Assembly: GCA_947179485.1 (NCBI GenBank)
Contig: OX359246.1
Location: forward strand, 59,995,632-60,059,631
Source of the DNA: Allacma fusca
Lineage: Eukaryota; Arthropoda; Collembola; Symphypleona; Sminthuridae
DNA: 64,000 bases
Direction: 5' to 3'
The first letter of the stretch is position 1, and each line of letters starts with the position of its first letter. The position numbers and the translations under genes were made by a program. Below the pieces are notes generated by a model. It saw only the letters and a program-made list of their open reading frames with translations. It was not told the origin of the DNA and made no database searches. This document shows positions 5,546 through 52,129 of this stretch, piece after piece.

Positions 5546-6302
5546 GACATGGATTACCATGGCTAATTGTAATAACCGTGGAGTTGGGCCTAAATCTGTT
5601 TTGCTCCTTTGTAGATGGAAACTCGTGTCAGAAAAAGCCACGGGGCTTCGTGTAATTTCTGATTACGCGGTCTTTGCATTTTAACCTTTCTAATGGTTCC
5701 TCGCAGGAATCTAATAAACAAATAGCATGTAAAGAGTCAGACACATCACCTATTTATCGACATACAATGGAGCTAGAAAGAATCAAAGAAGAATTTCAAG
5801 GGGCAGGTTCTTGAGATTAAATTTAATTAGCTTCATTGGGAGCGTAACATTTTAATTATTTTAAGATTCATTGAGATAAGTTCCGAATAAATATACATTT
5901 CTTAGCTTCAAGCAAAGATGCTAGCCTATCCTACATGTAGGCCTACTTGTAGGCCTATTTATAGGGTGCGAGCTATTTTCAGAAAAAATTATAGGCAAAA
6001 TAGGGTGCACTGGTTTTTGCAGAAAAAATGCCTATAAATAGGAAATGCGCGCCTGCATACACCAGGTCATATAGGCAAATATGTAGACAGCACAAGAACA
6101 CGCTTGTATGAAGGCAAATATATAGGATGTATATACATAACTATTGTCACATTTGTCACATTATGGAAGTCTTATCTCAATGCAAACCATAACGATTTTT
6201 AAACGTTGAAATATCAAGCTACTGCAACTGCAGGGATATGGACATGTGAGATTTCCCATTCAAAATAATATCCATACATAACTAACAATAAGTACATGTG
6301 CA

Positions 6303-6892
6303 TATCGTCGGCTAAATTTTAAAAGGTACCATATTCATTTCGTATTACGTGCTTTTTAAATGGGATCTCCATTTGTTCAGACCTGAGAAGTTTACATATT
6401 CCTGGTCCTCAGTTATTTAAGTAGCCTGGTCTTAGCGATAAAATGTCATTGCATTTGACCGGTTAGTCACTCCTAAACCTTAGCGATAAGAATGTTTATT
6501 TATAAAACTTTACCTTCCACAGAAATTTTCTTCCCTCTAAATCCACCTTATCTAAATTCAAATTAACCTATAACCTAACATTCCCTTCACACTCAAAGTT
6601 GCGAACTCAACAATTTGTCCCTTCAACAAACAGTGAGATTTTGGGAGTTGAGGAGTTAGCTTCTTTAGCCTTGTCCAAACCAAACCCCAGTTGTATGTAC
6701 AGAGTATTATTTGTTGTGTATTAAAATTAGTGGAGTCACTCTGCCCCAAAACACAAGTTCTCACTCGGGCTCATTTTCTCATGAACACCAGTCATACATA
6801 CACGCATCATTCATACATCCATCCAGCACTAAAGCTTCTTTCCATCTCAAACACCATTGAAAATGGTACTTTTTAGAATTTAGGCAACGATG
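6303..6892. repeat. Element with TIRs of about 28 bp nested in E1
   Basis: The left end, ATCGTCGGCTAAATTTTAAA, pairs with TTTAGAATTTAGGCAACGAT at about 6867-6886. The same TIR type forms a compact palindrome at 33540-33640. No reading frame of interest and no clear target-site duplication. Confidence 0.55.
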
Positions 6893-6979
6893 TATTGTAT
6901 GTGATTGCTCGATGGCTTATACTTACTGTAACGTGCAATAGGCCCGATCAATACGAGGTTTCAAATTATAATGCATGAG

Positions 6980-8264
6980 CACAGGTGACCATTCAATTTT
7001 CCACTACACTCACTACTCTAAAAACTTTTTCAGGGTAAATACCACTAGTTACCACTACACTACCAACAAGAATGATATTTGACAACTACTCTACTAATAC
7101 TCTATTTGATCGATAATCAAGACTACCACTACACTACTTTCCAGTAGAGTTTTACTTTCAGAGAGCACCTTTACTCTACTCTACCACTACTTGCCGGAAG
7201 CTAAAAATTAGCGTTACTCTACAGTACAACTATAACACTACTCTACGCAGTAAGAAAAGCCACACTATGCAATATACTACCTATTCACTGAATAGCCGTG
7301 CAATTTAATCTCAGCCTAAAATCAAATAATTTTAATATGCCTAAAAAGGCTCCTAATTTCTAAATATATGCTATAAATATGATTCCTAGCGAAAAAATCC
7401 CGTTTCATCGTATGTAAATACAGTTTATCCTCTGTCGATGAAGCTAGACGTTTATGCTAAATTAAAGGCATGCAGGACCGATCTTTACAAGAATCAATTG
7501 TAGGTTCGGCATTTTGAAAAACTAGTTTATTGTTTTAGACAACATTCACATGCGTGTATAACTCAAGTACATACATGAGAACGAGAACCACTGATTATAC
7601 CTATAAAAACCTGACTATAAAAACTTGTTACAAGTTGACTAAAAGATTAATAAATTACAATTGGCAATGGACTGTCCGTTGCCATTTTATGTACGGAATC
7701 TGCCTTACTCTGGATTTGGCTTGAATTTCAGAACTGTTAATTAACGGAGGATTAAAGCACTTAAATAAAGAAATCAATACTAAGATTTTGTTTTTGCAAG
7801 TTCAAATGCTGCTGAAAAGTACCAAAAAGTAGAATCCGCAATGCTCCAATACAAATACAAGATGTTACTATATCCATCCACGCAATCGCACAATAATATT
7901 TCGAGTATTTAAACGCGGCGTAACGGTGTAAGATATAGAAAGTTATGAAAAAACACATAATCACACATTCCATGTTTAAGTATAGTGCTTACTCGGGTAG
8001 CACTACTTTTTATTGGACTTTGTGTATGCATGTAAACTACTTCTACACTACATCCAAACTAAAGTCGGTACCACTATTCTACACTACATTTTAGGAACAA
8101 TGGTGAACGGGCACTAGTAGTTACTACTATTTACTTGCCTGCTGATGTCTCCTTCGTTCTACACTACCAATAAATATTATTTTATTTCATTTTCAACAAC
8201 TACTCTACTTTTTGCCACTATTCCACTACCACTACTAAAAAGTAGAGTAGTGTGGCCATCTCTG
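6980..8264. mobile_element. hAT-like element E2 (CTACTCTAC word), 8-bp TSD
   Basis: The left end reads CACAGGTGACCATTC and the right end, on the minus strand, CAGAGATGGCCACAC. TGCATGAG flanks both sides exactly (6972-6979, 8265-8272). Large parts of the body are degenerate CCACTACACTACTCTAC, especially 7000-7260 and 8030-8250. The element sits inside E1, so it inserted later. It encodes nothing recognisable. Confidence 0.85.
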
Positions 8265-8730
8265 TGCATGAGTAACATTAATTTTGAAGAAGTACTCAAA
8301 ATTAGTTTGTTTAAATATATGATACATAGTAACAAACAATTGCGAGTGTTTGCTGAATAGTTGTTGCACATGAGGGATATCCTAAATTTTTTCTAAACTA
8401 ATGTTATATGTCCAAAATTTTGCTAAAATATAATGTAAATATAATGTAATAATGTAATTTGTGAATTTCAATAAAAATATAATTTAATTCTGCAGTATAG
8501 GGTCACATGTAGGAAGGGGATAACACTTTCCGTATCCCTATATAGGCAGAAATGTAGGCAGCCACAAATGCCTACTTGTAGGGAAGGATATAGGCCCTAT
8601 AATTGCACAAGTAGGGAAGAAGGAAGGCCCCTCCTAAACTAAATGTATAGGTTGGATGTAGGGTAGGCAAAATAAGTTTAGCATCTTTGGCTTCAAGGCA
8701 AATCAGTTTCTTATTGATGATACAAGTACC

Positions 8731-9473
8731 CAGTGTTGACCATTTGAAAATGCCAAGGCATTTTGGGTGTTTTCAATCCTAGACATTTATTTCACTTTGG
8801 ACATTTATTGCTGTAAATATTCAATAAATTTTAGGCTTTCATGAAATGTTGGACATTATCATTCCCTGCTTTGATTATTCTTGATAATTTTGGTGTTACT
8901 AGCGGAGGCAGGTCGTTGATGGGAAAATTGCAAGAACAGAAAATCCTTCTTTCCTCCTATTTTATTTACCTAGCGTCCTATGCTAACGGCAATGTACACA
9001 CAATCTATGTACGTAGGGGTCTAAAAAGAAGCTTCCTGAAAAGTATCTTAGAATCCTCTATGACAAAAGATTTTTTGAGAAAAATATTTAGCCAGGAACA
9101 ACATTTTTTATGTCCTCGAAGTTTAAAGCAGATTTTTGGTTATAAAGAGTGGTATTAAAGAATTCGTTTCAATTGGGTATCGTTACACCATACAATGCAA
9201 TAACCAATTCGCTAGAGCATCTTTCATTTCATTCATCTGGTTATTATTCTGGCATAGTAGCATTTGAAATTCTTCAATGTTTATTTATAATAAACCATAA
9301 ATGAATTTAAATAATTTTTTAAACAATCTGAAAAAAGACTCTTAATGCCTAGGGAAAATACCTAAAATCCCCAGCATTTTCAATGCTGGGCAAAAACGGG
9401 ACAAATTGGGCATATTTGGCATTTTGAACTAGGCAACCAAAAATCGTGTGACATTCTCAAACGGCCAACCCTG
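8731..9473. mobile_element. hAT-like CAGGGTTG element, copy 1
   Basis: The left end is CAGTGTTGACCATTTGAAAA and the right end, on the minus strand, begins CAGGGTTGGCCGTTTGAGAA. AGTACCC overlaps or flanks both junctions, consistent with a partly decayed 8-bp duplication. Near the ends the body uses GGCATTTT/AAAATGCC and GGGCATATTTGGC. It contains an open frame (8841-9158) also present in copy 2. Confidence 0.65.
8841..9158 (+). CDS. Short conserved ORF inside the CAGGGTTG element, copy 1
   Basis: A 105-codon frame begins MKCWTLSFPALIILDNFGV and ends in FGYKEWY. Copy 2 (21949-22296) encodes a 115-residue homologue with scattered substitutions and a shifted C-terminus. The segment containing YFIYLASYANGNVH is shared. 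I do not recognise a family. It may be a remnant of a transposase exon, since the host element has hAT-type ends, but no RNase H-like motif or BED finger is visible. The frame may also simply be conserved because the copies are young. Confidence 0.3.
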   Translation: MKCWTLSFPALIILDNFGVTSGGRSLMGKLQEQKILLSSYFIYLASYANGNVHTIYVRRGLKRSFLKSILESSMTKDFLRKIFSQEQHFLCPRSLKQIFGYKEWY

Positions 9474-9703
9474 CAGTACCCGAGTAATACCCGGGTACAA
9501 ATTATAGGTACTCGGGTGCAGGTACAGGTTTTGTGTACAGTGCATTACGGGTAAATTCTGGGTACAGGTACTACATTTTATTTTCAAGTATGGGTACGGG
9601 TACTGAAAAAATTTACCCGAGTACTCGGGTACGGGTATAGGTACAGCATTTCGTCCTACCTGATATTCGGACGGGTATGGGTACGGGTACACGGTTTCTG
9701 TCA
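9474..9703. repeat. GGGTAC word repeat, second block of copy 1
   Basis: CAGTACCCGAGTAATACCCG starts a run of GGGTAC and GTACCC variants. It is matched by 22584-22850, and homology between the copies stops within GGTTTCTGT at about 9703. No gene. Confidence 0.6.
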
Positions 9704-11464
9704 GACCTGGATAACGTTATGGAATAACGTTATTTCCTGAAAAATGACAACGGTTTTTGAAAGCCAACCGCAAACCAAAAAACAAATATTTACGATAAAC
9801 GGGAACAAACGATAAATGTGTGTTTAAGTAAAAACCAAAACCGAAACGGAAAAAATACTGTTATTTTATGTTTTTTTCCAACTGTAAAGGCGACCAGTAC
9901 TCCAACTTCCAACTGTCGATTGAAATCAACGTGAATGAATGCCGTTTGAATACTTGGCTAATGTTGTAAACGTATTTTACATGAGTATGATGTATGTATG
10001 TACATATATTTACACTGATTACTTACCTAGTACACATAAATTGCTTATTGTCAGATTCATTACATGTAAATTTCGACTTGTGTATTGTTAGTGTCATACA
10101 AACATACGTCTGCTGCTTCTATTTGTTTTTGAATTTCAGCATATTTCGGTTTCTGCTAATAGTGCTAATTGTTAGTTCCACTCTGAGGAATAAAGATGAA
10201 AACAAAGAATCTGCATATACAGCTTCTCTTTCCAGTAGCAGAGCATTGTTGGAAGGTTTAACCTTACATGAGAAAATTCCGCGTGAAAGAAAGGCGTAAA
10301 GTGTGATCAATTCGTGTGGTGGGCCGATATAAATTTCATTCCGTGTATGAACAGCGATCCTTTTGCGTCCGCACATACTTATATGTATACTCTTTAAATC
10401 AGTTCAAAAATCCAACTATCTCAGGAAGGTAATTACAATGTGCTAAAGTTTAAGCAACATATTAATAATTGATAATTTCCGCATTTTAGTCAAAATTATT
10501 ACCAAGCAATAAGTTTATCAATTAATTTGTTCATTCATCCTTTAACCGCTTCCGACTCGACATAATAGTCTGTATGGAAAATTAAACATTGCTCAAACAT
10601 ATCAAAATGAAAAAACTAAGCAGCAATCAGAAAAAGAAAATTAAATATTTTAAAGCTGTTGAGAAGAATGAACCGCAACGATACTAATGAATACTCATTC
10701 TGAAACCGCAGAAACCACACTGAATTTACAACGTTGAAAGAGCCTGAAAATACTCCAGAATCGCCCAAAAATTGTGCATGTCTTCTTAGTAAATTATGTA
10801 TTACCCACGGATCCTCCAGCGAAAATCGTATCGCAATGGTTTCCACCTAACAAAGGTAAGACATTCATAATTTTTGGGCGATTCTGGAGTGCGTTCAGTC
10901 TTGCTGACGTCATCATCATGGGCGGGTCCGTCACTACACTATTTGATGACAGGAGGTGATGGCAGTATGGGGGGGTCTTCTTAAAACATACAAAATTTTG
11001 ATGACATCATTAACATGGACGCTCCCTTATCCGACATACATATACACTAAATCCGAGGATTCCTTGCTATATTTTAGGCAACATTTATATGAAACCAAGT
11101 CCTGCCTATATTCCTTCATACTTGCAGTACAAAACGCTGCCTATCCTATTCCTATTTTTGCACGCTGAATATTTCGGTTACTATCCTATCCTACCTACAT
11201 AAGAAGCCCGATTTTAATACCTATCCTATGTATATGCCTATAAGTCCTATCCTTCGAGGAAGGATGTGCACCTTTGGGTGAGGGAATGATGGCTTAATTA
11301 CATTCCTTGATGCACTTCGGATTGCTTTCCCCAAAACAGAACAAACCAAAAACAAAATCCCAAGGAACTGGGCGGCTGCTGTGACAGCTTCCATACTATA
11401 TGTAAATCAATAGCACATATCACTTTGTACACATATTTAATATTGCTTGTAATAATGGTTCCAG
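9704..11464. other. Gene-poor stretch with repeat fragments
   Basis: AT-rich sequence with short AACGTTAT and AAACGATA words near 9710-9860. There is a perfect 22-bp inverted repeat at 10752-10773 and 10869-10890. A CCTATCC word block (about 11100-11276) ends, on the minus strand, with the head CAAAGGTGCACAT, i.e. one end of an E1-like element. No supported gene. Missing 5' exons of the coiled-coil gene could lie here, but I could not identify them. Confidence 0.4.
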
Positions 11465-17508: not shown

Positions 17509-17629
17509 GATCATCTTAAAATCTTCAAATGTGGACGTGAAGATTGAACTTCACAGTTCATTGTTATTTTCAGGGTTTTCAACGATTAATAATCATAATA
17601 CATAATGATACATAATTATATGTATTGTA

Positions 17630-19275
17630 TACATTAAAACAAATGGGACAGACAACAAGCCCTGTTTTCCAGAATTAGAATTCTTGGAGATTGGTATGAC
17701 TTGTGCGAATATCGTGAATCCGTTTCTTCTGTCGTCCCCAAAGCTAACAGTAATTCGTGGCCCAATATTTCTGCAACACCTAATGAATTCTAATTTTTGT
17801 TCACCTTGTATGCCTAAGGATAAGTGGGGAATGTTCACGTGTTCAGAGGTCGCAAGACCTCAAGAACTAATGACACTAGGGATAAGATTTAGAAAAATTA
17901 AAAATTATGAATGGCATGGTGTCCATGTTCTGGCCAGAAGACACCCAAGACTTCCAAACCAGTTTAACTCTGCCCCAACAAATGTTTACAAAAACTCTCA
18001 CAAAACTGAGTACTTGGTGTAGAAATGCGTCTTTCATAGCAACTCGTGCCACCGAACCGCTTTTAAAACTGGAATCTTTGAGCCTAGGCTACTACAGATC
18101 TTCATGTCCTGATCCACCACTCATCTCCATGCGTCAATGTACTTTAGGAGCAATTGATTTTGATCGCGCCTTCCCTCGTCTAAGAAAAATGACAATTAAA
18201 TATCTACAATTGGAAAATGCTTTTCTCTCTCGAGAAGTAAGTCTTCGGCCGGGTTTATACAAGAGCAGCTCCGTGACCCACTTGAAAATTATGCACAAGC
18301 TCTCTGAGGACTGTTTAGCAGAAATTGCCAGAATGTTCCCCAGCGTAGAAATATTAGAAGTAGTCGACATTAGCAATGTCTCCGTGGCGTCCCGTCAGGA
18401 TTTACAGAAAACATTTCGATTTTGGGGAATCAGTGGTAATTTCCGGCGCCTCAAAACTGTGAGACTTGTTTGCTCTTTGCCTGCCGTGAGGTTTGATGAC
18501 TACATGGGATACGTAGAGTGTGGGAAGACAATCGGAGACTTGGATTGTCGGTGGAAATTCACGCTGGCCTCCAAACAATTTTCCGTATTTAACAAAAGTA
18601 ACGTCTTATATTCACTTCCTTTTTCCTGCGGTTTGTATCAAATTTTGAATTCAGTTATTTATGACCAGCTGATACTATACTATGCATGTCTTCATTCAGC
18701 TTCTTACTGTATTTCACAGATCATTTGAGAAGCATTGAGATTCACGTACGGAATTGCAGATCCAGTGTCTTGACGCATGTTGAAGCCTCCAACATTTTGT
18801 CAATTCGAGTTGCAAAGATGATCCGAGCCAACGTTCCGGGATTTATGGTCATTCTACGGTTCCTCTGCCGTTGTGAGCGGTGTGAGTAATTTTCATATCT
18901 ATACCTTTATAGGATGAGATCACTCTCACTTTATAGGGGATGCTCTTGTAAAACAATTCATTTGGGATATAATGGCTTTACAGCCCCTTTTCCCGTTTAC
19001 ACAATATTTAAAACTATGCATCAAAGAAACAGTATTGCGAATATTTACACCGAAAAATAATTCCATCATTGGAGCATCATTTTCATCAAAAATGCCCTGC
19101 GTATCAGAATTTGGATCTAATTGAACTTCTTTTTAATTTCTTCCAGGCAATCAAATAGATGAAACATATTTCCAGCATTTGAGACCCTTTTCTACAATCA
19201 CGCATTCCCTATGTGTTCATGGTTTACTGGAGATCAAAATAATATTCGGGAATAAGAGCCTTAAAATGTGGCCGT
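17630..19275 (+). pseudogene. F-box/LRR gene copy A, 5'-truncated
   Basis: From TACATTAAAACAAATGGG on, this is nearly identical to copy B (from 26271), but the F-box exon and the first third of exon 2 are absent. Relative to B there is a 9-nt net deletion near 17878 and a 1-nt insertion near 17889 that shifts the frame. After that an open frame (17907-18597) carries LRR strands such as LLKLESLSLGYYRSS and FPRLRKMTIKYLQ. The equivalents of exon 3 (about 18722-18883) and exon 4 (from about 19147) survive with their splice sites. The stop at the end of exon 4 has become TGG. Close identity to B over introns and 3' flank shows a recent segmental duplication. No product is expected. Confidence 0.85.
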
Positions 19276-19668: not shown

Positions 19669-21190
19669 AGTAGGTGATGTATTATCAATAATGTTTCATC
19701 CGAATGATACAATTAATTCGTTCTGGACTGGTCAGACTGATAGACCAGATCAAATGTTTCTGGCCAAGAAATTCGGCGGATCATGCTCCTTGGTCTGAGT
19801 GTGTGGAATAGATCATATGGAATAGTCCGACACTTGGACTAGAAATTTTGGAACAGAGTAGACATTTAGTTGGGGGGGCTGGGATTGGGTTTGATGTCAA
19901 ATATCCTTCATTAATAAAATTAGTTATTTACCGCGAAAATGACTGTCGTAATACTTTCACGTACACTGTTGGCACAGCTTCAATAAACGTTCATAATATC
20001 TATGTATACAAATTAATCTATACACAGTATTAATTATACCATTTAAAACAACGGTGTACATGTAGATATTTATGTACTTCTGTTGCTACTATATCCGCAT
20101 CCAGGGTAGTACAAGGATACTTCAACTGGTTAAACTTTAGAAAAGTTACTTCCATATACATAATTCTTCGTTTTGGTTAGTCATTGCCTGTTAGAGTCAA
20201 AGACATTTGAGCGGACCATGAATTTTGCTTTAGAAATTTCATAAAAATCGACGTTTACATCATCAAGGAATTATGGAGTTATCAAATTCTTGGTAGCCCA
20301 GGAGAATCTAAACTATGTACCCCATCTGGTAATATCTGCTGGGGTAGAAAAGGGATTTCATACCCCTGTACATAATCATCAAGAACGTGAAGCAAAATGA
20401 AGATTTCTAATGAATGAAGGCATTGAAAAAAAATTCACAAGCAAAATTTTAGTTAAGTTTTTTTATTGTTAATTTTATGGGAGCCATTACATGTAAGTAC
20501 ATATTTCTGTACATTTTACATACCCGCTTAAAGAAATGTTGGTGATCTTCAGAAATTTATGCTAAACCATATCGTTTTCAAGATTTGTAAAAGTTCATCA
20601 ATGACAACCATATTTAGAGGGACTGTAGGTAGTATCATTTCTTCTAGGAGAAAGTAACTGCTAAAAATGAGTTGATAAAATTCTGACGGTATCGAAAATT
20701 TAGTTTAGATGATTTTATGTGTATATGCATGGAGGAAGTGCATGCATAGTGCCTGAATATGTAAAAATATATGTATGAGATGCAGCATTCTGGTGAAATA
20801 TTAATGATGTTATTGTGTTTTTTTTAATTTTCCGCACAAATATCGTCAACTCCAACAACCAATTCGAGGAATTATATCGAAGCAACTAATTAAGTAACGC
20901 CGTTGTTTTAAATGGTATAATTAATACTACAGATTAATTTGTATATGTACATGCAGATTATGAACATATTTATTACAGCTGTGTCCACAGTGTCCGTGAA
21001 AGTATTACCCATGTAATTTTCGGGGTACTATATAATAACTAATTTTATTCATACACGATATTTGACTTCACCTCCAACCCCCCCCAACTAGCGCTGTGAA
21101 TGTTCCAGTTTGTTCCAAGATTTCCGGTTTGGTCTGGTCCATGCGCAGGACTATTCCATATGATATGTTTCACACAGTGCTCGGACTGGG
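19669..21190 (+). repeat. Long-TIR repeat R1, copy 2 (most complete)
   Basis: The left arm from about 19794 and the right arm up to about 21190 are imperfect inverted repeats of roughly 300 bp. Matched marks are ATCATATGGAATAGTCC in both arms, AGTTGGGGGG (19868) against CCCCCCAACT (about 21090), and AATACTTTCACG against CGTGAAAGTATT. The centre is unique AT-rich sequence. The outer edges contain TGGTC/GGACC words. No protein is encoded, so it is a fold-back-like or MITE-like non-autonomous element. Other copies are at 3940, 28216 and, inverted, 33458. Confidence 0.7.
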
Positions 21191-21450
21191 TACTGGTAAT
21201 ACTCGGGTAAATGGGTATGGGTACGGGTACAGGTACTACCCTAGTACAGAAGTTGCGTACTAGCAAATACGCGCGTACTACCCGAATACTCTGGATTTTA
21301 AACATTAAAAAAGGTACAGGTACGGGTACGAGTATGAGTACTCAGTGAGCGGCAATCGACCAGTACCCAAAAGGTACGGGTATCACTAGGTAAAATATTT
21401 TTACCCGTGCTTGTTGTACCCGAGTATTTTTGGGTACTTCAAGGATTTCC
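21178..21450. repeat. GGGTAC word repeat, copy 2
   Basis: Starts CAGTGCTCGGACTGGGTAC and consists of GGGTACGGGTAC variants, as in 5020-5545, but without the 236-bp insertion. This makes it the empty-site reference for that insertion. Confidence 0.6.
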
Positions 21451-21855
21451 TACTGGACATGGATTACCATGGCTAATTGTAATAACCGTGGAGTTGGGCC
21501 TAAATCTGTTTTGCTCCTTTGTAGATGGAAACTCGTGTCAGAAAAAGCCACGGGGCTTCGTGTAATTTCTGATTACGCGGTCTTTGCATTTTAACCTTTC
21601 TAATGGTTCCTCGCAGGAATCTAATAAACAAATAGCATGTAAAGAGTCAGACACATCACCTATTTATCGACATACAATGGAGCTAGAAAGAATCAAAGAA
21701 GAATTTCAAGGGGCAGGTTCTTGAGATTAAATTTAATTAGCTTCATTGGGAGCGTAACATTTTAATTATTTTAAGACGCGTTGAGATAAGTTCCGAATGA
21801 ATATTCATTTGTTAGCTTCAAGGCAAATCAGTTTCTTATTGATGATACAAGTACC
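21451..21855. repeat. Unique part of the duplicated block, with the E1 empty site
   Basis: Nearly identical to 5546-5912 joined directly to 8690-8730. The single GCTTCAAG at 21815-21822 is the unoccupied target of E1. No gene is seen. Confidence 0.75.
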
Positions 21856-22583
21856 CAGGGTTGACCATTTGAAAATGCCAAGGCATTTTGGGGCTTTTTC
21901 AATCCTGGGCATTTATTGCTGTAAATATTCAATAAATTTTAGGATTTCATGAAATGTTGGACATTATCATTCCCTGCTTTGATTATTCTTGATAATTTTG
22001 GTGTTAATAGAGGAGGCAGATCGTTGATGGAAAAATTGCAAGAACAAAAAATCCAACTTTCCTCCTACTTTATTTATCTAGCTTCCTATGCTAACGGCAA
22101 TGTACACAAAATCTACGTAGGGGTATATATACAGAGAAGCTTCCTGAAAAGTATCTTAAAATCTTCTATGACTAAAGATTTTTTTAGAAAAATATTTAGC
22201 CAGGAACAAAATTTTTTATGTTCTCGAAGTTTAAAGCAGATTTTCGGTTATAAAGAGTTTGGTATTAAAGAATTCGTTTCAATTGGGTATCGTTAAACCA
22301 TACAAGAATTGTGCAATAACCAATTCGCTAGAGCATCTTTCATTTCACACATCTGGTTATTATTCTGGCATAGTAGCATTTGAAATTCTTCAGTGTTTAT
22401 TTATAATAAACCATAAATGAATTTAAATAATTTTTTAAACAATCTGAAAAAAGATACTCTTAATGCCTAGGGAAAATACCTAAAATCCCCCGCATTTTCA
22501 ATGCTGGGCAAAAACAGGACAAATTGGGCATATTTGGCATTTTGAACTAGGCAACCAAAAATCGTGTAACATTCTCAACCCTG
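21856..22583. mobile_element. hAT-like CAGGGTTG element, copy 2
   Basis: Left end CAGGGTTGACCATTTGAAAA; right end, on the minus strand, CAGGGTTGAGAATG. AGTACCC is found at both junctions. Length about 728 bp, collinear with copy 1. The 115-codon frame at 21949-22296 (MKCWTLSFPALIILDNFGV and onward) matches the frame in copy 1; it has no recognised domain. Confidence 0.65.
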
Positions 22584-22850
22584 CAGTACCCGAGTAATAC
22601 CCGGGTACAAATTATAGGTACTCGGGTGAGAGTACAGGTTTTGTGTACAGTACATTACGGGTGAATTCTGGGTACAGGTACTACTTTTTATTTTCGAGTA
22701 TGGGTACGGTTGAACAAATTACCCGAGTACTCGGGTACGGGTATAGGTACAGCATTTCGTCCTACCTGATATTCGGACGCGTATGGGTACGGGTACACGG
22801 TTTCTGTACCTGTACACATACCCGACCGGATTTCTTGAGAAGCATTTGAT
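22584..22850. repeat. GGGTAC word repeat, second block of copy 2
   Basis: Degenerate GGGTAC/GTACCC, matching 9474-9703 up to GGTTTCTGT. Beyond that the two copies differ. Confidence 0.6.
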
Positions 22851-23583: not shown

Positions 23584-24051
23584 TAGTGATGCCAATGGAC
23601 TGGTCTGATCCAGATTTTATGAAAATGGTCTGGTTCAAAGCACAGACCAGACCATTGGTCTGGCCCAGTTTTTCGGACCAGACCAATGGTCTGATCCATT
23701 CGTTCGGACCAGACCAGACCAAAGACCACGGTCTGGACCATGGTCCAGAAAACCATTGAGAGCAATTGAAGAATCACAATTTAGTCCAGTAAATTTTTCT
23801 TTTATCCCCAGAAATGACATTTATAATTTGTTCCATAGGATTTCGTTCACTCATAAATTTTTATTTTGCGTACTTTTGGGACCATGGTGCTGTGGTCTGG
23901 TCTGGTCTGTTCCTGAAGCTGGACCAATTGTATCTGGTGCGGTCCAAGTGTTGGATCAGACCGGACCAGACCATACAAGTCTTGGACCAGACCGGACCAG
24001 ACCAATAACGGACCATTAATAATGGTCCGGACCAGACCATTGGCATCAATA
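23584..24051. mobile_element. hAT-like element E8 (TGGTCTGGTCC word)
   Basis: Ends TAGTGATGCCAATGG and, from the right, TATTGATGCCAATGG. The flanks CATCAAAC and ATCAAAAC look like a decayed 8-bp duplication. The body is degenerate TGGTCTGGTCC and its complement, orientations switching between halves, with a non-repetitive core of about 110 bp (23760-23870). The many overlapping frames here are artefacts of the repeat. Confidence 0.7.
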
Positions 24052-28930: not shown

Positions 28931-29158
28931 TAATTTCCCGGAGATTAAAAGGACACCGCACAATCCTTACGAGAATATGCCCCCTGTTTGATCTCGATAA
29001 GAAAATTACTGGAGGGTGCACCTTGAAGAGTAGATCATTTTTGATAATTGGCCCAAAGAAATCGTAATGCAGGATTCGGAGATATCCCGGGTTAAAGTTA
29101 CCGAAAAATGAGGGGGGGGGGGCTCAAGGGGTCCCAAAAATTTCAAACCGTGAATATT

Positions 29159-29790
29159 GGTGCCTTAAAATCATTCGAATTGCCCGCAAATAGACTAGAA
29201 CTTTTAGTTTAAGCCCAAATAAGCTGCCTGTCAAGTTTGGTTTCATTTAGTGACACGATGACCAAGCTGTGACCTCCGAGGTCAATATCTTGTCCATACC
29301 GGATTTGGTGCCCTAAAATCATTCGAATCGCCTGCAAATAGACTAGAACTTTTCGTTTAAGCCCAAATAAGCTGCCTGTCAAGTTTGGTTCCATTTAGTG
29401 ACACCATGACCAAGCTGTGACCTCCGACGTCAATATCTTGTCCGTACCGGATTTGGTGCCTTAAAATCATTCGAATTGCCCGCAAATAGACTAAAACTTT
29501 TAGTCTAAGCCCACATAAGCTGCCTGTCAAGTTTGGTCCCATTTAGTGACACGATGACCTAGCTGTGACCTCCGAAGTCAATACCTTATCCATACCGAAT
29601 TTGGTGCCTGAAAATCATTCGAATTGCCCGCAAATAGACTAGAACTTTTAGTTGAAGCCCATATAAGTTTCCTGTCAAGTTTGGTTCCATTTGGTGACAC
29701 GATGACCCGGCTGTGACGTCGGAGGTCAATATTACATCCATACCGGATTTAGTGCCTAAAAATCATTCTATTTGCCCGTAAATATTCATA
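29159..29790 (+). repeat. 148-bp tandem array, left (4 units plus part)
   Basis: Units start at 29159, 29307, 29455, 29603 and 29751, exactly 148 bp apart, each opening with a GGTGCC-like motif followed by AAAATCATTC. Each contains GTGACACGATGACC and the palindromic GACCTCCGAGGTC with variants. Units are roughly 90% alike by eye. Open frames of 61 codons in the units are by-products. Confidence 0.9.
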
Positions 29791-31300: not shown

Positions 31301-32150
31301 GGGGCGGGAAACCGGTATAGATGCGCTGTTTGTATACAATGTCACTGATGCTTCACAAGGTCACTAACTGAAACCAAACGTGACAGGCAGCTCATCTGGG
31401 CTTAAACCGAATCTTCTAGCATATTTGCTGGAAATTAGAATGATGTTTAGGCAATAACACCGGTATGTGTGTGATATTGCCCTCGGAGGTCACATCTGGG
31501 TCATCGTGTCACCAAATGGAACCAATCTTGACAGGAAACTTATCTGGACTTGAACTAAACGTTCTAGTCTATTTGCTGGTAACTCGAATAATTTTTAGGA
31601 ACCGAATCCGGTATGGATAAGGTATTGACCTCGCGGGTCACATCTGGGTCATCGTGGCACCAAATGGAACCAAACTTGCCAGGAAACGTATCTGGGCTTA
31701 AACTAAAAGTTCTAGTCTATTTTCGGGCAATTCAAATGATTTGTAGACACTAAATCCGGTACGGATAAGGTATTGACTTCGGAGGTCACAGCTTGGTCAT
31801 CGTGTCACTAAATGGAACCAAACTTGACAAGCAGCTTATGTGGGCTTAAACTAAACGTTCTAGTCTATTTGCGGGCAATTCAAATGATTTGTAGACACTA
31901 AATCCGGTACGGACAAGATATTGACCTCGGAGGTCACAGCTTGGTCATCGTGTCACTAAATGGAACCAAACTTGACAAGCAGCTTATGTGGGCTTAAACT
32001 AAAAGTTCTAGTCTATTTGCGGGCAATTCGAATGATTTTAAGGCACCAAATCCGGTATGGACAAGATATTGACCTCGGAGGTCACAGCTTGGTCATCGTG
32101 TCACTAAATGGAACCAAACTCGGCACACGTTGAATATATGTCTAATGAAA
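31300..32150 (-). repeat. 148-bp tandem array, right (about 5-6 units, inverted)
   Basis: Equivalent points lie at 31449, 31597, 31745, 31893 and 32041, again 148 bp apart, with a more diverged unit before them. The units are the reverse complement of the left array (GGTCATCGTGTCACTAAATG). Units close to the right arm are most like the left array; those toward the centre have diverged more. Confidence 0.88.
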
Positions 32151-32539
32151 GCCCTAGTTCTAATCTGGGCCAGTTTCATCAGCGTTTAGAATATGAAACC
32201 GGTATCGACGTTCTTTGACCTCTTGAGGTCAGTATCTTGGAAAGTTGAGGTCATATCTGGCTGAAATTTTTTTTACACGTTATTTAATTTTTATTCTTGT
32301 CATTTTTGAAGTTCTAAATGTTCTAATCGCTAATTTTCACGGTTTGAAATTTTTGGGACCCGTTGAGCCCCCCCTCATTTTTCGGTAACTTTAACCCGGG
32401 ATATCTCCGAATCCTGCATTACGATTTCTTTGGGCCAATTATCAAAAATGATCTACTCTTCAAGGTGCACCCTCCAGTAATTTTCTTATCGAGATCAAAC
32501 AGGGGGCATATTCTCGTAAGGATTGTGCGGTGTCCTTTC

Positions 32540-33449
32540 CAGAGCTGCGGTCAAGTTCATGTTAAAACTTGTCATGTTCATGTCAAGGTCAAGTTCATGT
32601 CAAGTTCGGTTTGACGATTATTTTAACTTGACCATGAAGCATCATGTTCGAGTTTACGTCAAATTTTCACTCGACATTCAAGTCCGAATCATGTTCAAGT
32701 TCAAGTCTTCATCCTCCAACTTGACAACATTGTCATGTTCATGGTCGGTTCAGCCATCTGGAAAAACTTGAACATGAGCATGTCATTTCAAGTTGATGTT
32801 AAAAACGATGAATAAAACGTGATTGCAAGATATCCTTTATTTACAGCTTGTACCTGATTTAAAATTTCAACGGTTTGCAAACAGGAGCATCTAAAATACA
32901 TACACGCATGTATAAAAAAAACTCAACGTGCTTATTCCCGTCAACCGCATGGTAAAGTAAAGTCATATCATAAAGCTGAAATACAGTAAATGAAATCAAT
33001 AAAACTAAGTTAATTAGAAGTGGTCCACATTTATACTGACTGAAAAAGCGTCCGGTGGTCAAAGTTTCAGAGAAACCCCTGGGGGAATGTTGATTAAAAT
33101 ATTGTGGTTATTAATTTTGTCTATTGCATTTTAAGCTGACATAACATAAAAGGTTGCAATGTTGAGTCCTTACTTAATTTATTTTTTACCCGTATAACTT
33201 TAAATTCGTGATCATGTTCAAGTTCAAGTGCATGTTCGGGTCAAGTAACGGAGCTAACTTGATCTTCATGTTAGCACCATGTTCAAGTTCGGTGAAATCA
33301 ACTTGAACTTATCATACTTTCATGGTCAAGTTATGACGTGAACTTGAAGTACTCAGGTCATGTTCAGATCGTGGTTTATTTAAAATTGTCATGTTCGAGT
33401 CATGTTCACGTTCGAATCGCTATTTGAACCGAACATGAACGCAGCTCTG
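32540..33449. mobile_element. hAT-like element E7 (AAGTTCATG word), 8-bp TSD
   Basis: Ends CAGAGCTGCGGTCAAG and, from the right, CAGAGCTGCGTTCATG. GTCCTTTC flanks both sides exactly (32532-32539, 33450-33457). About 230 bp at each end are degenerate AAGTTCATGTC in both orientations around a core of about 430 bp (32790-33210) without a recognisable gene. It splits the edge of the right arm of the fold-back element. Confidence 0.87.
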
Positions 33450-34665: not shown

Positions 34666-37028
34666 ATGGATCCAGAAGAGTATGCTTACGTAGGACATCT
34701 GTCCTACCAAGTTTTCTCAAATCACTTGGTAAATCTAACATAATCAATATTGACGCCATCAATTAATTTCATATCTGAATAAAAGTTTGATTATATATAA
34801 GTGTTTAAATATGACAGTTTTTAATCTTGAATTTCCAATAATAATTAATTATTGTATTATGAACCTGCGGTTGGAATGAAATTTGAAATCCATTGAAGCC
34901 AATATTTTCTAACTAGTTTTGTTTATTTTAGCTTGTGAACACGATATGGAGACATTTTTCAATGGAAACGTTGAGAACATTGTCCCTCGTTTGCCGGTCT
35001 TTTTGTGTTATTTCTCGAAAGCGCCTACGAGATCACCACTTCCTACCATTGGGTATCAGTATAAGTTTTGACGGTCCTTGCAAGAGGTTGGAAGCTGCAG
35101 AGGAAATAATCCGAGATTCCACGGACAGTCCCTACAACAGCATAGCTCTCTTCAAGCCTAGGAAATGTCATTCATTCGAATTCGGCTGTTCGAACAATTG
35201 CAGGGAAGGGAAAGTGGAGGACATGTGTCCGAGTATATTACAATGTAACAAATGGAAAAGTATAGGGATCTTCGTGCCCTATCACTGTGACCAAAATTGC
35301 CCGTCCCTGAAACTATTTTGGATGTTGATCTTCCAGAATGCCAAATCCGTCAGAAGACTGTGCTTCAGCGGGGACTCCGCTGTAATCCGGGACAACCTGG
35401 AAATGTACATTAAGTTACATAGGAAGGAAAACAAATTCTGCTTCCCGGAATTAGAAATCTTGGAGATTAATTTTAATTGTTACGATGTGATCAGCCTATT
35501 TATTATGTCGTCCCCAAAACTTGCTGTCATTCGTGGCCCTTTAAAAACCCCTAACGTAATGATACGTAAGAGATTTCCACTTTATATTCCGAAAGAAAAA
35601 TTCGGGGTGTTCGCTTATTTCCACATCTACAGTCCTCGCGAACTGGTGACACTGGCAGGGGAAGGGATGATATTGGAAAAATTAAAATTTATAAATACTA
35701 TGACGTCCAGGTTCTGGCCCAGTGAGATACGACATTTCCAAACAGGTCTAACTCTACCCCAGCAAATGTTTACAAAAACTTTGAGAAAAATTAGTTGTTA
35801 TTGCAGTACTGCGGCTTTCATTGCCACTCATGCTAAGGAACCGTTTTTAAAACTTGAGTCTTTAAGCCTTCGCTCAAACTTTGTATGTCCTAGCCCAACC
35901 GTCATTTCCATTCGTGAAAGTACCTTAAGGGCAATAGATTTCGACCGGATGTTTCCGAACCTTCGGAAAATGACAATCAAATTTCTAGAAGGGGGTAAGG
36001 CCTTTCTCTCTCCAGAGATAACTCTTCTTCCGGGATTGTACAAGAGCAGCTCCGTAACCCATCTCAAGATCATTCACAAGCTCTCTGAAGACTGTTTAGC
36101 AGAAATTGCCAGGATATTCCCAAACGTGGAATTATTGGAAGTAATCGACATGGACTATGGTCCAGTGGCATCCCGTCAGGATTTACAGAAAATATTTCAA
36201 TTTTGGGGAAGCAATGATAATTTCCAGCGCCTCAAAACTGTGAGACTTGTTTGCTCATTGCCTGCCGTGAGTTTTGATGACTACATGGGATACGTAGAGT
36301 GTGAGAAGAAAATCGGAGACTTGGATGGTCGTTGGAAGTTCACGCTGGCCTCCAAACAATATTCCATTTTTAACAAAAGTAATTTCCTTTTGGCTTAATT
36401 GTTGTTTATATGAAATTTTGAACTCAATAATTTATGATTGGTTCATCACTATCTTTTTACTATGTCTTAATCCAACATATTGTAGATCAGATGTAGATCA
36501 GGTGTTCGTGATGTTCCTAAGATTCACTTTATGTTTCACACATTTCATAAATTCCTGTATTTACTTCACAGATCAGTTGAGAAGTACTGAGATTCACGTC
36601 CGGCATTCCAGATCCAGTATTTTGACGCATGATGAAGCTACAAAAATTTTCTCAATTCATGCTGCGAAGATGATTCGAGCCAAACTTCCGGGATTTAAGG
36701 TCATATTACGCTTTCCGTGCCGTTGTGAGCTGTGTGAGAAATTTTGAAATTCCTTTTGAAGATCAGAGATCATATAGTTAGAATTTATTATGAAATATTC
36801 TGTGTACTCAATGGTAAATAATGTAATTATTTGTTCTCTGTATGTAGATGTATCTAAATTAGCATCAATATTTAAACTTGTCTTGGTTTGTAATTCATTC
36901 CAGGTCATCAGATAGATGAAACGTATTTCAAGCATTTGAAGCCTTTTACCACGATCAGGCGTTCCCTGAATCCTAATGGTTTACTGGAGATTCAAATTGC
37001 ATTCAGTAATAAGAATTTTAAACTCTAA
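34666..37028 (+). CDS. F-box/LRR protein, copy C
   Basis: Exons 34666-34728, 34932-36378, 36572-36733 and 36904-37028 join in phases 0, 1 and 1 into 598 codons, the same plan and nearly the same exon lengths as copy B. The F-box reads QVFSNHLLVNTIWRHFSMET then LRTLSLVCRSFCVISRK. LRR strands include FPELEILEINF, FLKLESLSLRS, FPNLRKMTIKFL and FPNVELLEVIDM. The C-terminal exons encode NQLRSTEIHVRHSRSSIL and HQIDETYFKHLKPFTTI. Identity to B is high in the N-terminal third and the last third of exon 2 but much lower in the middle, where the likely substrate-binding repeats lie. No damage is visible, so it is probably a working SCF adaptor with a different target. Confidence 0.86.
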
Positions 37029-37092: not shown

Positions 37093-37924
37093 TAGTGCTG
37101 TCCATGGGAACAGGAGACACCCAGGTTTTTGGGAACAGGAACAGGAATGGGTGCGTACGGGAACACAAATTTTGTTCCCAAAATACTTTGGGAACATTTG
37201 GGAACATAGAAATTGTTCCCAAAATATGGGAACAAAAGCGGGTTTGGAAACAGGAACAAAACGTGTACCTACCTGGTATTCACATGAAGTTTATAATATA
37301 AAAATACCTCACAAATAAAATATTATTGTAAAATTACGTCGCAACATGTCAAATACGTCACTTTTTCGCACGTTATTATTTAACAAAATAATAAATATTA
37401 ATTATTTAGCAAGTGGCAAAAATGGAACTCTCATTAACTTAAATCCAAAATTGTAGCTCAGAAAACTCCAGCGTGCTCTTATCCTTGTTAGTTCAGCAAA
37501 AGTATATTGAAATTGTTACTTCTCTTAGCTAATTTCAGTTACTACTGTACTTTGCGCTGCGATGATTAATTTAATGATTGTTACTGAATTTTCATTTAAT
37601 TTCGAGTAGCTAAAGGTATTGGAGATGGTGTGCTGTTATTTATTTTTAATAAAGTGGATTTGATATTTGGTTTTTTAAATCTACGCATAATTAGAGCTAC
37701 CTGGGGTATAAATGTGTAGGTTGTACTTTTCTGCTAGTCTTTAAATACTTTTGGGAACAGGAACAGGAACATTCCTGTTCCTGCAGGAACAGGTCCAGGA
37801 ACTTTGAATTGGTACCCATTTTTATGGGAACAGGAACAGGACCATTGCTTTAGTTCCTGAAAAAATGGGTACAGGTACAGGAACAGGTATGGGTACCAAA
37901 TTTCCGTTCCCATGGACAGCACTA
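37093..37924. mobile_element. hAT-like element E4 (GGGAACAGGAAC word), 8-bp TSD
   Basis: Both ends read TAGTGCTGTCCATGGGAAC, a perfect 19-bp TIR. ACGTGAAC flanks both sides (37085-37092, 37925-37932). The outer 190 bp on each side are degenerate GGGAACAGGAAC and complement; the core (about 37290-37730) is AT-rich and non-coding. It lies only 64 bp after the stop codon of F-box copy C, so it may sit in the 3' UTR and could influence RNA ends. Confidence 0.9.
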
Positions 37925-40740: not shown

Positions 40741-41792
40741 CAGAGGTGTCCATCCTTTGAAGGATTTCCTTCAAAGAAGACTTCTTTGAACGAATTAAGC
40801 GTTAGCTTTTGGCAATTATGAAGGGAGCGGAAGGAAGGCTGGAAAGTAGAGCTACTTTTGGGATCGGGATACACCCGGGAATTGGGTTCGGGATCGGGAA
40901 CGGGTTCGAGTTCGGGTGTTTAATTTATGTTCCCAAATACTTTGGGACCAGGTTCAGGAACATGCTCAGCAGACCCGGGATTTCGGGATCGGGACCGGGT
41001 TTGGGAACGGGTTCAAGCTTGATGAAGGTATTTGCGTTCCCGTCGGGAACCGGGAACATCTTCGTTCCCACACCCGTTACACGCTTCACGTTCCCGGGAA
41101 CTACGCAACCATCTAGCGGAGAAAAAAATACAAAGCATGCACGGCTTCCCTCGTTAAAATGTTGAGATAATAATTTTACGTAAGCGACTTGAGCCGTTTC
41201 GCATATTGTCAGTTGGGATCGCGCGTAGTAGTGATTTCCGCCTACTCTAACTTGCAAGATGAAAGTCATTGCAAAACTCATAGTGGGAATCGTTTAAGCA
41301 GTCTTCCTGCATCTTTTTCGGCAACGCAGACCAGACGTTTATTTTCATGACCATTTTTAATGTTCCTAAATCTATTGTTGCATGCACAAGTATTGTTAAA
41401 TCAATAAAAATGGGAAGAAAAAAATTGATTTACACTAACTACGCTGGTCCCGGGAACGAGTCCGGGTTCAAGGGATTCGGGATCGGGATTGGGAGCAAAT
41501 TTTATCTGATTTCGGGTTCGGGATCGGGATCGGGTTTGAGATCAACGATTCAAGCATATTTAATATCTGGGTTTTTGTGCACCCGATCCCAGTATTTCGG
41601 GAACGGGTTTGGGTGTGAGTCCGAAAATATTGATGACCCGATTTTCGGGATCGGGTTCGGGAATGGGATCAAACTTTTCGTTCCCACAAGTAGCTCTACT
41701 GGAAAGGAAACAAAGGCTGAACGAAGACCTCTGCTCTTTGCAGAAATAATGGAATGGGAACGAACGAAGGTGATTTCAAATGGACACCTCTG
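40741..41792. mobile_element. hAT-like element E5 (TTTGAAGG word), 8-bp TSD, host of E6
   Basis: Both ends start CAGAGGTGTCCAT. CTCCTGCT flanks both sides (40733-40740, 41793-41800). Excluding the nested E6 only about 200 bp remain, made of CTTTGAAGGA and TTCAAAGAAG words, so E5 is a very small MITE. Confidence 0.85.
40847..41698. mobile_element. hAT-like element E6 (GGGATCGGGTTC word), 8-bp TSD, nested in E5
   Basis: Ends TAGAGCTACTTTTGGGA and, from the right, TAGAGCTACTTGTGGGA. CTGGAAAG flanks both sides (40839-40846, 41699-41706). Both flanks of the body are degenerate GGGATCGGGTTCGGGAACGGG-like words; the core (about 41160-41440) is not repetitive. Large Gly-rich frames (from 40809 and 41347) come from the repeat and are not genes. 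Confidence 0.88.
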
Positions 41793-41800
41793 CTCCTGCT

Positions 41801-48277: not shown

Positions 48278-51200
48278 TCAAACGGACAACCTAGGTTTAG
48301 TAGTGTTTGCCAGGAACTCTGATAACTGTCCAGAGTCTTCACAGCATGGAGGATTCTTGAGTCCTGCAGCCTCAAAAGCTTTGGTCCACTGATGACTGCA
48401 GTTGTAGAATATCAAGGAAATGTCAATTTTTTTCATGCCTCTCACAAGAGCCACGAGGGAATTGATTGCCGTGTAATCCCAGGATGTCCACCGCTCCATG
48501 TCAATCACGATAATGCGTACATGACTGTAGCGGTACGTTACTTTGTTTACTTGCGTTCGCAGATGATCTATGCTGGGGAATTTCAGACCTCCTTCGGGCT
48601 TCACTAAAAGATATTTGAGACCTGTCTGAATATCTACTCGGACTTCCGGACCCATGGGAGGCCGCAGAGTTTGGATTAACAATGCTGCCACGCTGATTCC
48701 GACCCCGATCACAATCCCATACTCCATCCCAAGAAAAACTGAGCCGACGAACGTGATCATGCACGTGACGACGTCCAAGCCTGCATACAAATAAAAAACA
48801 TTATGGATATAAAAAACTGGTAAACGCGCGGATAATAAAACGGTAAATAAAAAGATTAATAAATTATTGTATGACCTTATATATTATATACAAATTTATT
48901 TTAATAAATATATTCTTATAGTAATTACGAGATATCCGCCACATTGGAATAAGAGCCTGGTACTCAATCATGGTCATCACGGCGGAAATAATTACTGCAG
49001 CTAGAGAAGCTTTTGGAATGTAATAAAAGGAAGGCGTAAGAAATGCTAATGAGAGAAGCACCAAGGTTCCTATTTTTAAAAACGCATGTTTAATAAAACG
49101 AATTAATAAAACCTGATCAACAAATTAATGAATGACATAATTATTAAATATTAATCACGTATTTAGAGTTAAAAAGCGTCTGAAACATACCAGTAAAAAG
49201 ACCCCCCATGGGTGTTCTCACCCCTGAAGCGTCGTTGACTGCAGACCTGGAAAAAGATCCACAGGAAGGAATGGCACTAAAGAAAGACCCGAAGACATTT
49301 GTAACACCAAGTGTGAGCATCTCCTGCGTAGCATCTACTGACTGTCCACTTCCAAAAGCTTTGGAGATTGCTACATTCTGAAGAATTGCAATTATTGCTG
49401 CCACAAGAGGGGCAGTACTGTACTTTTGCCAGGTTTCCCAGAAGTCTAACATCTCCGTGGAATCTGTCCCATTTGCATAATTTTCAGCTGGAAGAGAAAA
49501 TTTAGGTGGAGCAACAGCAGGAAGACCACTTTGAACTTTTCCAGTTAGTTTGAAGGGGGGATTTGACCAAATGAATGCTATGATGGTTGTTGTGACGACG
49601 ATGAGAGCATTCCGAGCCACTGTCACGTACCAAAAGCACTTCTTCCAAAAACGCTTTCTACGGCCTTCAGGAGCTTTGAAATCTTTGACACGCTGTTGAA
49701 TTTGAATCAAGATAAAAGGTTAAAAAATTATCAACTTGAGTTTCAGATTAGTTATTGTGCAATAGTAGCATCAAAGCATATAAATAAGAGTAATCTCGTA
49801 AACAAAAATAAAATGTCCTAAAAAAGCGAATGTTATCCGTGTACATATTCAATTTGAGTTTTAGTTAATTTAATTCTCCTTGTAGTGAATAGAACGAGAT
49901 AAAATAAACAGTTAGTATACTTTGAGGAATAGCAGTGCTAAGAATGAGGTGATTCCCATCACAGCATCCCCAGTTGTTACAGTATCATAATGCCGGAATA
50001 GCTCCTTCCAAATGCTAACGATTCCAGAGCCGTTCGCAACTTTCATTCCAAGTAGGTTCTTAATCTGAGCAGACATAGTAGTAATAGCAGCACCTGCTGT
50101 AAATCCCACTGTAACTGGCTCCGAAATAAAACTCACTATCACTCCTAAGCGTCACCAAAACATTAAAATTATTGAACCAAAGAAAACAATTTGTATTATT
50201 ACAGTATGACTAATTGTAACTTATAGCCATTATGCGGAATACTAGCACATCTATCATACATTATCCAGAATCTGTAGGAAAACAGAAACTCGGGACCAAA
50301 TGTTCCAAGAATGACATTTTCCTAGGTAATTTGTTTAAGAAACCGTTTTTGCCTGGGAAAACCATGGACGGCCTGCGAACAAATTCAGGGATTTTTTGGG
50401 AAAACTGTTTTGTTTATTATAAGAACATGGACGATCGGAGAAAATTCTCAGGGATATTTTACTGAAAAGTAGCAAAAATCAGGGATGATACAAACCCCTG
50501 ATCTATGGATCAGTACAGATTCTGGAACCCAGCATACATGATTTCATTATAACAAATTCAAGCTACTTCACAAAAACATGTTTTAAAGCAAATCTCACCC
50601 AAATGCAAGCCAGCCATAAGCAGCTGGAAGACTCCACTCCAGAAACCTATCCAGATAGCACATTGAGGGAATTCTGTTCCACACGTCTGGAATACCAGCA
50701 GACTAAGCAAGGATACCGGACCAACCGTCACTTGCCGACAAGAGCCCAAAATAATATACAGAAAGCACCCAATGTACGAGGAGTAAAGTCCATACTGTAG
50801 AAAAATATAAGAACATACATATGTCGATATTTAAATAATTATTAGACCCATTGTAGATAATATTTGCACAGTCACAGACCCTAATTAGATAAAATAAATA
50901 AGCATGACATATGTCCGTTTCCTGAAAACCCTGGGTATACTCGGACGCACTCTTAAGCTCTTAAGACTCCCTTGCAACCAGCTAAGGCTTCCATCCGACC
51001 GGATAAATCGAATATCCGATCCGAATCCGATCCGAACCGAAATTTTCGGATAAGTTTTCTTAATATCCGATCCGACCGTTACGGATTCGGATAAAAATTT
51101 TATTCATCCGTATCCGATCCGAAATTTTCGGATCGGATAAGTGCAGTATCCGATCCGATCCGCGGATATCCGAAATTATCCGAATTGATACCATTGGGTG

Positions 51201-52129
51201 ATAAAAAAAAGTATTAGGAATTTTCACTGCAAAAATGCATTAGCTTTTTGCTACATCACAATATTAATAATTTTTGCATGCATTACGTCATATGTACAAA
51301 CTGAAGAAAAACTTTACAAACAACGCTGTAAATGTGAAGCACAGAATTAAGAAGAAAACAAGTAAAAAGCGGCACAGTTACTCTTTGGACAAATTGTTGT
51401 TGCACACTTCGTTCTTATTGGTCGCTCGAACGCGCTAAAAATTTGATTTTCGGATATCCGTCGGATTATCCGATATTTATTATTTGTGATCCGAACCGAT
51501 CGGATAAAGTCTTTTCCAAATCCGATCCGATCCGAATCCGATGACCGGATAAGGGGTACGTATCCGATCCGATCGGATTGTGTTCGGATCGGATAAGTAT
51601 GTATCCGATCCGAAATTTCGGATATCCGATCTTCGGATATCCGAGGATCATCCGATCGGATGGAAGCCTTACAACCAGCCATAAGAAATAAAAATAATTT
51701 AGTAAACAAATAAAATTGCTGAACTCAAAATAAAAAGGTTACCTCTGGAGTTAACCCGGCCAGAGCAGCAAAGCCCATGCTCTGTGGAACCACAGTGAGC
51801 CCAACAGTAATACCAGCAATAGCATCATTAATCAAGTAATTTTTCTTATAGCTCGGTAACCACTTGATGATCGGTATCCTCCTGCGAAGTAGCTTTCCTA
51901 AAAAGGACCGCCTTGGTTTTGGTTCTGCAAAAAATTGGAGATACTTCTCAAGGCCACGGTTATATAAAAATAATTTCGTAATTATAACAGTTTACTCAAC
52001 CCCGTAAACCTAGTTACCTTGTACCATGAATGTAAAAATACCTTTATGCTGCTGATCCGACTCCGGCTCAAGACTGTCATTTGTAGTGCAAGACTCTGTC
52101 TCAATATCCGGGACAAATGTATCTTTCAT
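48278..52129 (-). CDS. SLC26 family sulfate/anion transporter (A11-like)
   Basis: Seven exons join without frame error into 611 residues: 52129-52042, 51924-51743, 50794-50599, 50144-49921, 49692-49191, 49069-48929 and 48780-48278. The protein should be a multi-pass membrane anion exchanger. Seen in order: a hydrophilic N-terminus; VGLTVVPQSMGFAALAGLTP and YGLYSSYIGCFLYIILGSCR, the sulfate-transporter signature; further membrane segments (FISEPVTVGFTAGAAITT, SFLALLFLK, LVAAIIAILQNVAISKAF); the loop SCGSFSRSAVNDASG; FTGTLVLLSLAFLTP; and a C-terminal STAS domain with VRIIVIDMERWTSWDYTAIN. Length and short STAS tail fit SLC26A11 better than prestin-like members. Met at 52153 is in frame eight codons earlier, so the start is open. 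The last exon ends in TGA. Intron 2 contains the hAT-like element E3. Confidence 0.92.
50983..51671. mobile_element. hAT-like element E3 (TCCGATCCGAA word), 8-bp TSD, in SLC26 intron 2
   Basis: Left end TAAGGCTTCCATCCGACC; right end, on the minus strand, TAAGGCTTCCATCCGATC. CAACCAGC flanks both sides (50975-50982, 51672-51679). The outer 190-220 bp on each side are degenerate TCCGATCCGAA and GGATATCCGA; the middle (about 51190-51440) is AT-rich. The element has no gene. It contributes no exon to the SLC26 model. Confidence 0.92.

Follow-up and report, generated by a model that had tools for sequence, protein, structure and literature searches.

Seven short hAT elements, six of them with subterminal word arrays, in a 64-kb stretch of the Allacma fusca genome

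The seven elements and their insertion sites

The stretch of DNA analyzed here (the window) comprises 64,000 nucleotides of the collembolan Allacma fusca (GenBank assembly GCA_947179485.1, contig OX359246.1, positions 59,995,632 to 60,059,631 of the forward strand) and carries seven short elements, E1 to E7 (Table 1). Judged by its gene content, the window is nuclear DNA of animal type. It includes a PUS1-like pseudouridine synthase (best match chain, Pseudouridylate synthase 1 homolog; E = 1.9e-102) and sulfate permease exons with a STAS domain, and tRNA and Rfam searches over the whole window gave no matches. A preliminary description of the window had assigned all seven elements to the hAT superfamily on the strength of their tips and of perfect 8-bp target site duplications (TSDs). 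At the exact coordinates, the flanking duplications are identical at 8 of 8 positions in 7 of 7 elements, and the tips match YA..G in 14 of 14 ends. E2 lies within E1 and E6 within E5, every one with its own duplication.

We also scanned the window blind for paired ends that are flanked by an 8/8 duplication, both fit YA..G, agree at 9 or more of their 14 terminal bases, and enclose a span of 120 to 6000 bp, using 100 dinucleotide shuffles as the control. The scan returned seven pairs, which are exactly E1 to E7, while the shuffles gave a mean of 0.23 and a maximum of 3. Raising the demand to at least 11 of 14 matching tip bases left six pairs against a shuffle mean of 0.01, and at 12 of 14 or more there were again six, with zero in every shuffle. 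When 7/8 duplications were allowed, 13 pairs were found, where the shuffles averaged 4.64 and reached 11; the six extra pairs are therefore chance-like and carry no weight. Dropping the YA..G demand at a threshold of at least 12 tip bases produced 14 pairs, made up of six of E1 to E7, five from a single large palindromic tandem block, and three others. E2, which has only 9 of 14 matching tip bases, was missed by the scan without YA..G at a threshold of 10; the other six were found.

For E1, the insertion can be shown directly, because a paralogous site carries a single copy of its duplication and no element. The joined E1 flanks (5793 to 5912 plus 8698 to 8809) align to this empty site with 94.4% identity over 215 columns, and the two loci sit in paralogous blocks. 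The same joined-flank comparison for E2 to E7 found no second junction-spanning copy of the insertion site. Together, the duplications, the tips, and the empty site support the hAT assignment of the preliminary description well.

Nested inserts left out, each element has 192 to 1484 bp of its own sequence. No transposase domain was found among the open reading frames (ORFs) scanned inside the elements. In the window as a whole, a hAT or BED domain was absent from the 136 ORFs scanned among the 185 of at least 66 amino acids (profile cut-off E up to 0.01) and from a further set of nine (cut-off 0.001). We call E1 to E7 nonautonomous because they are too small to hold a transposase and the reading frames scanned gave no hint of one. 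They are small and noncoding, with interiors unrelated to a transposase, as are miniature inverted-repeat transposable elements (MITEs) and Ds elements.

Table 1. Elements, arrays, and reading frames in the window. Positions are those of the window.
Feature	Position	Strand	TSD or flank	Tip or end	Word	Array period (bp)	Remark
E1	5913..8689		GCTTCAAG		TAGGC/CCTATA	12	Host of E2
E1 left word array	5913..6162
E1 right word array	8440..8689
E2	6980..8264		TGCATGAG		CACTAC/CTCTAC	3 and 5	Within E1
E3	50983..51671		CAACCAGC		ATCCGA	5
E4	37093..37924		ACGTGAAC		GGGAAC/CAGGAAC	6
E5	40741..41792		CTCCTGCT				192 bp of own DNA surrounding E6; no significant word array
E6	40847..41698		CTGGAAAG		GGGATC/GGGAAC/GGGTTC	6	Within E5
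E7	32540..33449		GTCCTTTC		AACTTGA/CATGTTC	6
E8a	5020..9705				GGGTAC		Paralogue of E8b with E1 and E2 inside
E8b	21175..22835				GGGTAC	6	Arrays at 21175-21445 and 22575-22835
E9	23584..24051		ATCAAAAC, left copy minus one base	TAGTGATGCCAATGG/TATTGATGCCAATGG	GACCA	5
E10	63679..64000	+		TAGTGCATCGCATGGGTTC	GGTTCA/ACCTGA		Left end only, the element running past the window edge
Paralogous empty site of E1	21703..21917	+	Single GCTTCAAG				No element
PIF/Harbinger-like element	279-3662		TAT	GGGTGCGTTGTTTTATT	AGGCA/CCAGG
Three related long ORFs	17886-18728, 25777-27378, 34932-36747						No Pfam match at 0.001

Word arrays inside the tips

The preliminary description had also ascribed to each of the seven elements a degenerate array of one short word, different in each element. 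Taking the outermost 250 bp of every end and both strands, we counted words without overlap, excluding tips and nested inserts, and compared the counts with 300 dinucleotide shuffles per element. The best 5-mer and the best 6-mer shared by both ends beat all 300 shuffles in E1, E2, E3, E4, E6, and E7. The best shared 7-mer did so in E2, E3, E4, E6, and E7; its count in E1 was reached by 10 of the 300. Subterminal short repeats at both ends are thus a property of six of the seven elements, and the claim holds for these but not for E5.

The arrays are confined to the ends. The outermost word copy lies 11 to 23 bp from the tip in 12 of 12 array ends, and the innermost lies at 166 to 267 bp (300 bp inspected per end). 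Word coverage is zero between 300 and 450 bp inward. Arrays running past the termini had been named in advance as a finding that would speak against the preliminary description; coverage is zero in the 50-bp bin immediately outside every tip, and in the 400 bp outside the tips an isolated copy occurs in three bins, one each for E3, E4, and E6. The words cover 21 to 52% of their own ends, a figure that is high by construction. Their coverage elsewhere, which is not, is 0.3 to 0.8% in the rest of the window and at most 1% in the ends of other elements, with two exceptions: E4 words cover 15% of the E6 ends and 3% of the E5 ends. The words are therefore mostly private, as had been claimed, save for GGGAAC, which E4 and E6 have in common.

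To compare the two ends of each element, we aligned the left end locally with the right end and with its reverse complement, leaving out 18 bp per tip. The direct alignment outscored the inverted one in E1, E2, E3, E4, E6, and E7, six of the seven elements tested, while the reverse was true of E9; the arrays therefore do not form a long inverted repeat, and the long colinear inverted ends typical of foldback elements are lacking. Words are present in both orientations, in agreement with the preliminary description, with one absolute strand favored at both ends. In directed 6-mer spectra, same-strand agreement exceeded inverted agreement in 9 of 9 array pairs (in E9 merely by 154 to 153), and in 7-mer spectra it did so in 8 of 9. 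The same-strand excess is seen in all six array elements (E1 to E4, E6, and E7) at k = 5, 6, and 7. When 30-bp blocks were flipped at random, the polarity had P values of 0.001 to 0.023 in these six elements; for the two E8 paralogues P was 0.024 and 0.004, and for E9 it was 0.49. There is little polarity in element interiors.

The words of E4, E6, E8, and E10 differ chiefly in the central two bases of GGGWWC. Counted with a GGGNNC hexamer pattern that was picked after inspection of the arrays, the central pair is AA in 11 of 15 hexamers in E4; AA in 12, AT in 9, and TT in 6 of 32 in E6; TA in all 14 in E8b and in 19 of 21 in E8a; and TT in 3 and TA in 3 of 7 in E10. The remaining window holds 160 such hexamers spread over the pairs, with no more than 16 for any one pair. 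The tips of these elements are similar as well (TAGTGC in E4, TAGAGC in E6, CAGTGC in E8, and TAGTGC in E10, those of E8 and E10 being without a checked TSD). E7 has a CAGAGC tip but another word.

Further elements and other features of the window

Several additional elements lie near E1 to E7. E9, which is also hAT-like, was not caught by the blind scan because its left duplication is one base short; it has an empty site at 27351-27463, in the opposite arm of a palindrome. For the paralogous E8 blocks, which GGGTAC arrays flank, end alignment did not fix the termini or a TSD. The PIF/Harbinger-like element contains a DDE_Tnp_4 domain within 1266-1772 and a weak HTH_Tnp_4 match below the cut-off, and its words occur at both ends above all 300 shuffles. 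A GGAAC/CGGAAC-rich stretch, seen by eye at roughly 3680-3930, adjoins one of its ends. A solo E1-like end at 11020-11276 carries the words ATAGGA and TAGGC and the tip CAAAGGTGCACATCC on the minus strand (11262-11276); neither its tip nor a duplication identified a left partner.

The window also contains a large foldback at 28948-32538. Its arms are perfect over 171 bp, its 148-bp tandem repeats are inverted, and E7 has inserted directly at its end. A second inverted repeat, at 62412-62953, has perfect 153-bp arms and a 236-bp spacer. The three related long ORFs look by eye to be F-box/LRR-like, and two of them (17886-18728 and 25777-27378) lie within stretches that are 94% alike over 1.7 kb. 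Scans of viral contigs found no match to the array of E3 or E9 or to the tip of E4. A GGGTAC-type pattern occurred in at least 120 stretches of IMG/VR contigs, which we took for chance or coding repeats and regard as uninformative.

Interpretation and comparison with known systems

We read E1 to E7 as nonautonomous, Ds-like hAT elements whose arrays are subterminal repeats predicted to be bound by cognate transposases, and we put the probability of this reading at roughly 80%. By analogy with the systems discussed below, the word arrays are most likely transposase address labels. Each word copy would be recognized weakly by the N-terminal BED zinc finger of a cognate transposase encoded elsewhere, and a multimeric transposase engaging many such sites could gain affinity and specificity beyond what a 10- to 13-bp tip affords. 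Different words would then imply different cognate transposases. The strand bias at both ends may render the left and right ends nonequivalent, as is the case in Hermes and Herves, where the complexes are asymmetric, although this is the weakest point of the proposal.

Four other explanations were weighed. The 5- or 6-bp periods and the degeneracy of the words would be expected of micro- or minisatellites that arose by slippage inside MITEs and play no part in transposition. In six elements, however, a single word is concentrated at the two ends and not in the interior or flanks, and both orientations occur, unlike in plain slippage, so that we find this origin quite improbable. We think it slightly less probable still that the elements belong to another superfamily. 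The P and Merlin superfamilies also make 8-bp duplications, and no transposase was found that would decide the matter, but all 14 ends obey the hAT YA..G rule and the short tips are followed by subterminal repeats. The least probable of the four derives the arrays by decay from the two arms of a long terminal inverted repeat, such as that of a foldback or Galileo-like element. The same word would then be expected at both ends, as observed, and the window does hold true foldbacks (28948-32538). Inside the tips, however, the ends of six of the seven elements tested align better directly than inverted, and the strand excess is direct in all six array elements, the opposite of what decayed arms should give.

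The fourth explanation concerns only the inner word copies, which might bind a host protein with a DNA-bending or regulatory function, and it is compatible with transposase binding at the outermost copies. A host factor has been proposed for the required region of Hermes beyond 50 bp (PMC10368747). A host protein would be expected to use one word for all elements, whereas the six elements have mostly different words, and we consider this explanation improbable, though less so than the other three.

A number of observations weigh against binding of the arrays by cognate transposases, or against parts of that proposal. E5 has a shared word only at chance level, with 139, 298, and 228 of 300 shuffles equaling the observed count at k = 5, 6, and 7, respectively, and TTTGAAGG occurs in it exactly twice. 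Between the E8 paralogues, words are no better conserved than spacers (12 mismatches in 192 positions versus 17 in 242). Polarity was also subjected to a stricter control, in which 1500 pairs were drawn at random from stretches outside the elements, matched in length and spacing. It remained strong in E2 (0.000; 0 of 1500) and E6 (0.003); the values were 0.009 for E8a, 0.086 for E4, 0.087 for E7, 0.099 for E8b, 0.10 for E1, 0.27 for E3, and 0.50 for E9, which has no polarity. In six of nine cases the flanking DNA leans to the same strand, and in E3 it does so more than the ends themselves. We therefore regard polarity as clear for E2 and E6 and as a lean in the same sense for E1, E3, E4, and E7. 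Among published systems, the motifs of Ac and Tol2 are reported to differ between the two ends, unlike the words here (PMC3143072). The right-end sites of Hermes are not bound by BED fingers in the complex seen by cryo-electron microscopy, and mutants of its inner left-end sites did not reduce transposition dramatically, so that the host factor was proposed (PMC10368747).

The GGGWWC series suggests a further and more tentative idea, that the words form a lineage of shifting address labels. The BED-finger specificity of one transposase lineage would have drifted base by base, the dozens of sites in the two ends of its passengers would have been rewritten in concert, and E6 would be in mid-transition. 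We regard this as possible but doubtful, and we lowered our estimate of it because the random-pair control weakened the one-way polarity.

The points worth retaining are the diversity of words within a single stretch, the GGGWWC series, and, with less weight, the polarity; together they make BED-finger specificity testable. Six distinct words and a seventh, that of E9, can be read from TSD-flanked passengers, and BED-finger specificity might be decoded by pairing words with transposases. It would also become possible to study how dispersed sites, numbering in the dozens, change in step with the enzyme. The strand lean at both ends amounts to a simple prediction of end asymmetry, which can be checked in other hAT families. 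In the accounts available, mapped recognition motifs are named for few hAT transposases, namely those of Ac, Tol2, Tag1, Herves, and Hermes. A search of the open-licence literature, which leaves subscription journals and Repbase aside, found no animal genome with several differently worded hAT families. In plants, SIMPLEHAT1 and SIMPLEHAT2 of Arabidopsis (Repbase names) are nonautonomous hAT elements rich in simple sequence. The portions available of two further papers, PMC2872659 (on coral MITEs of the piggyBac type) and PMC4423477, do not describe such arrays in hAT elements.

hAT transposases bind short repeats inside the tips. The sequences bound are said to differ among these transposases and so to ensure their specificity (PMC3143072). 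Among the closest parallels is maize Ac/Ds, which has 8-bp duplications, 11-bp tips, a subterminal hexamer, and many nonautonomous passengers. Its AAACGG repeats lie within 200 bp of the ends; they bind Ac transposase cooperatively and have been called the likeliest source of specificity (PMC3260210). The preliminary description had set these bodies apart from ordinary MITEs, a distinction that fails for hAT passengers, of which Ds is an example. Ac/Ds differs from the present elements in having a single word for the whole family, against mostly one per element here; in addition, 314 of 331 Ds1 elements have fewer than three hexamer copies, and some Ds-like elements with AAACGG repeats stayed immobile when tested (PMC3260210). 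In Herves of Anopheles gambiae, one short motif is likewise repeated at both ends; it is critical and sufficient for transposase binding, and the two ends are bound asymmetrically. Unlike our elements, Herves encodes its own transposase, and its motif occurs several times in the binding regions, compared with dense arrays extending 166 to 267 bp inward here (PMC3143072).

Hermes of the housefly also has many short sites: AAG(T/C) occurs 17 times in one end and 14 times in the other. The sites of the two ends are mostly nonaligned, and BED fingers of several subunits bind three left-end sites. Hermes differs from the elements here in its motif, which has 4 bp and was bound well only as AAGT with AT-rich DNA after it, and in having no more than eight additional putative sites per end past bp 50 (PMC10368747). 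Its left-end sites 2 to 7 are antisense and its right-end sites 1 to 5 are sense, directions that would, on our own reading, match the lean seen here if sense is counted from the tip inward. In Kat1, the polarity of the repeats is reported to differ between the ends (PMC4763223). Outside the superfamily, Galileo of Drosophila, a P-superfamily element, has several sites for the transposase THAP domain in its repetitive ends, and its specificity has been argued to come from many copies of a short site; it differs from our elements in its superfamily and in its long inverted repeats (PMC3688188). The label principle is thus already known, and arrays of this kind are an established feature of the hAT superfamily; they do not set these elements apart from it. 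The unusual feature is how many different words occur within 64 kb, and so many labels in one short stretch constitute a useful natural catalogue.

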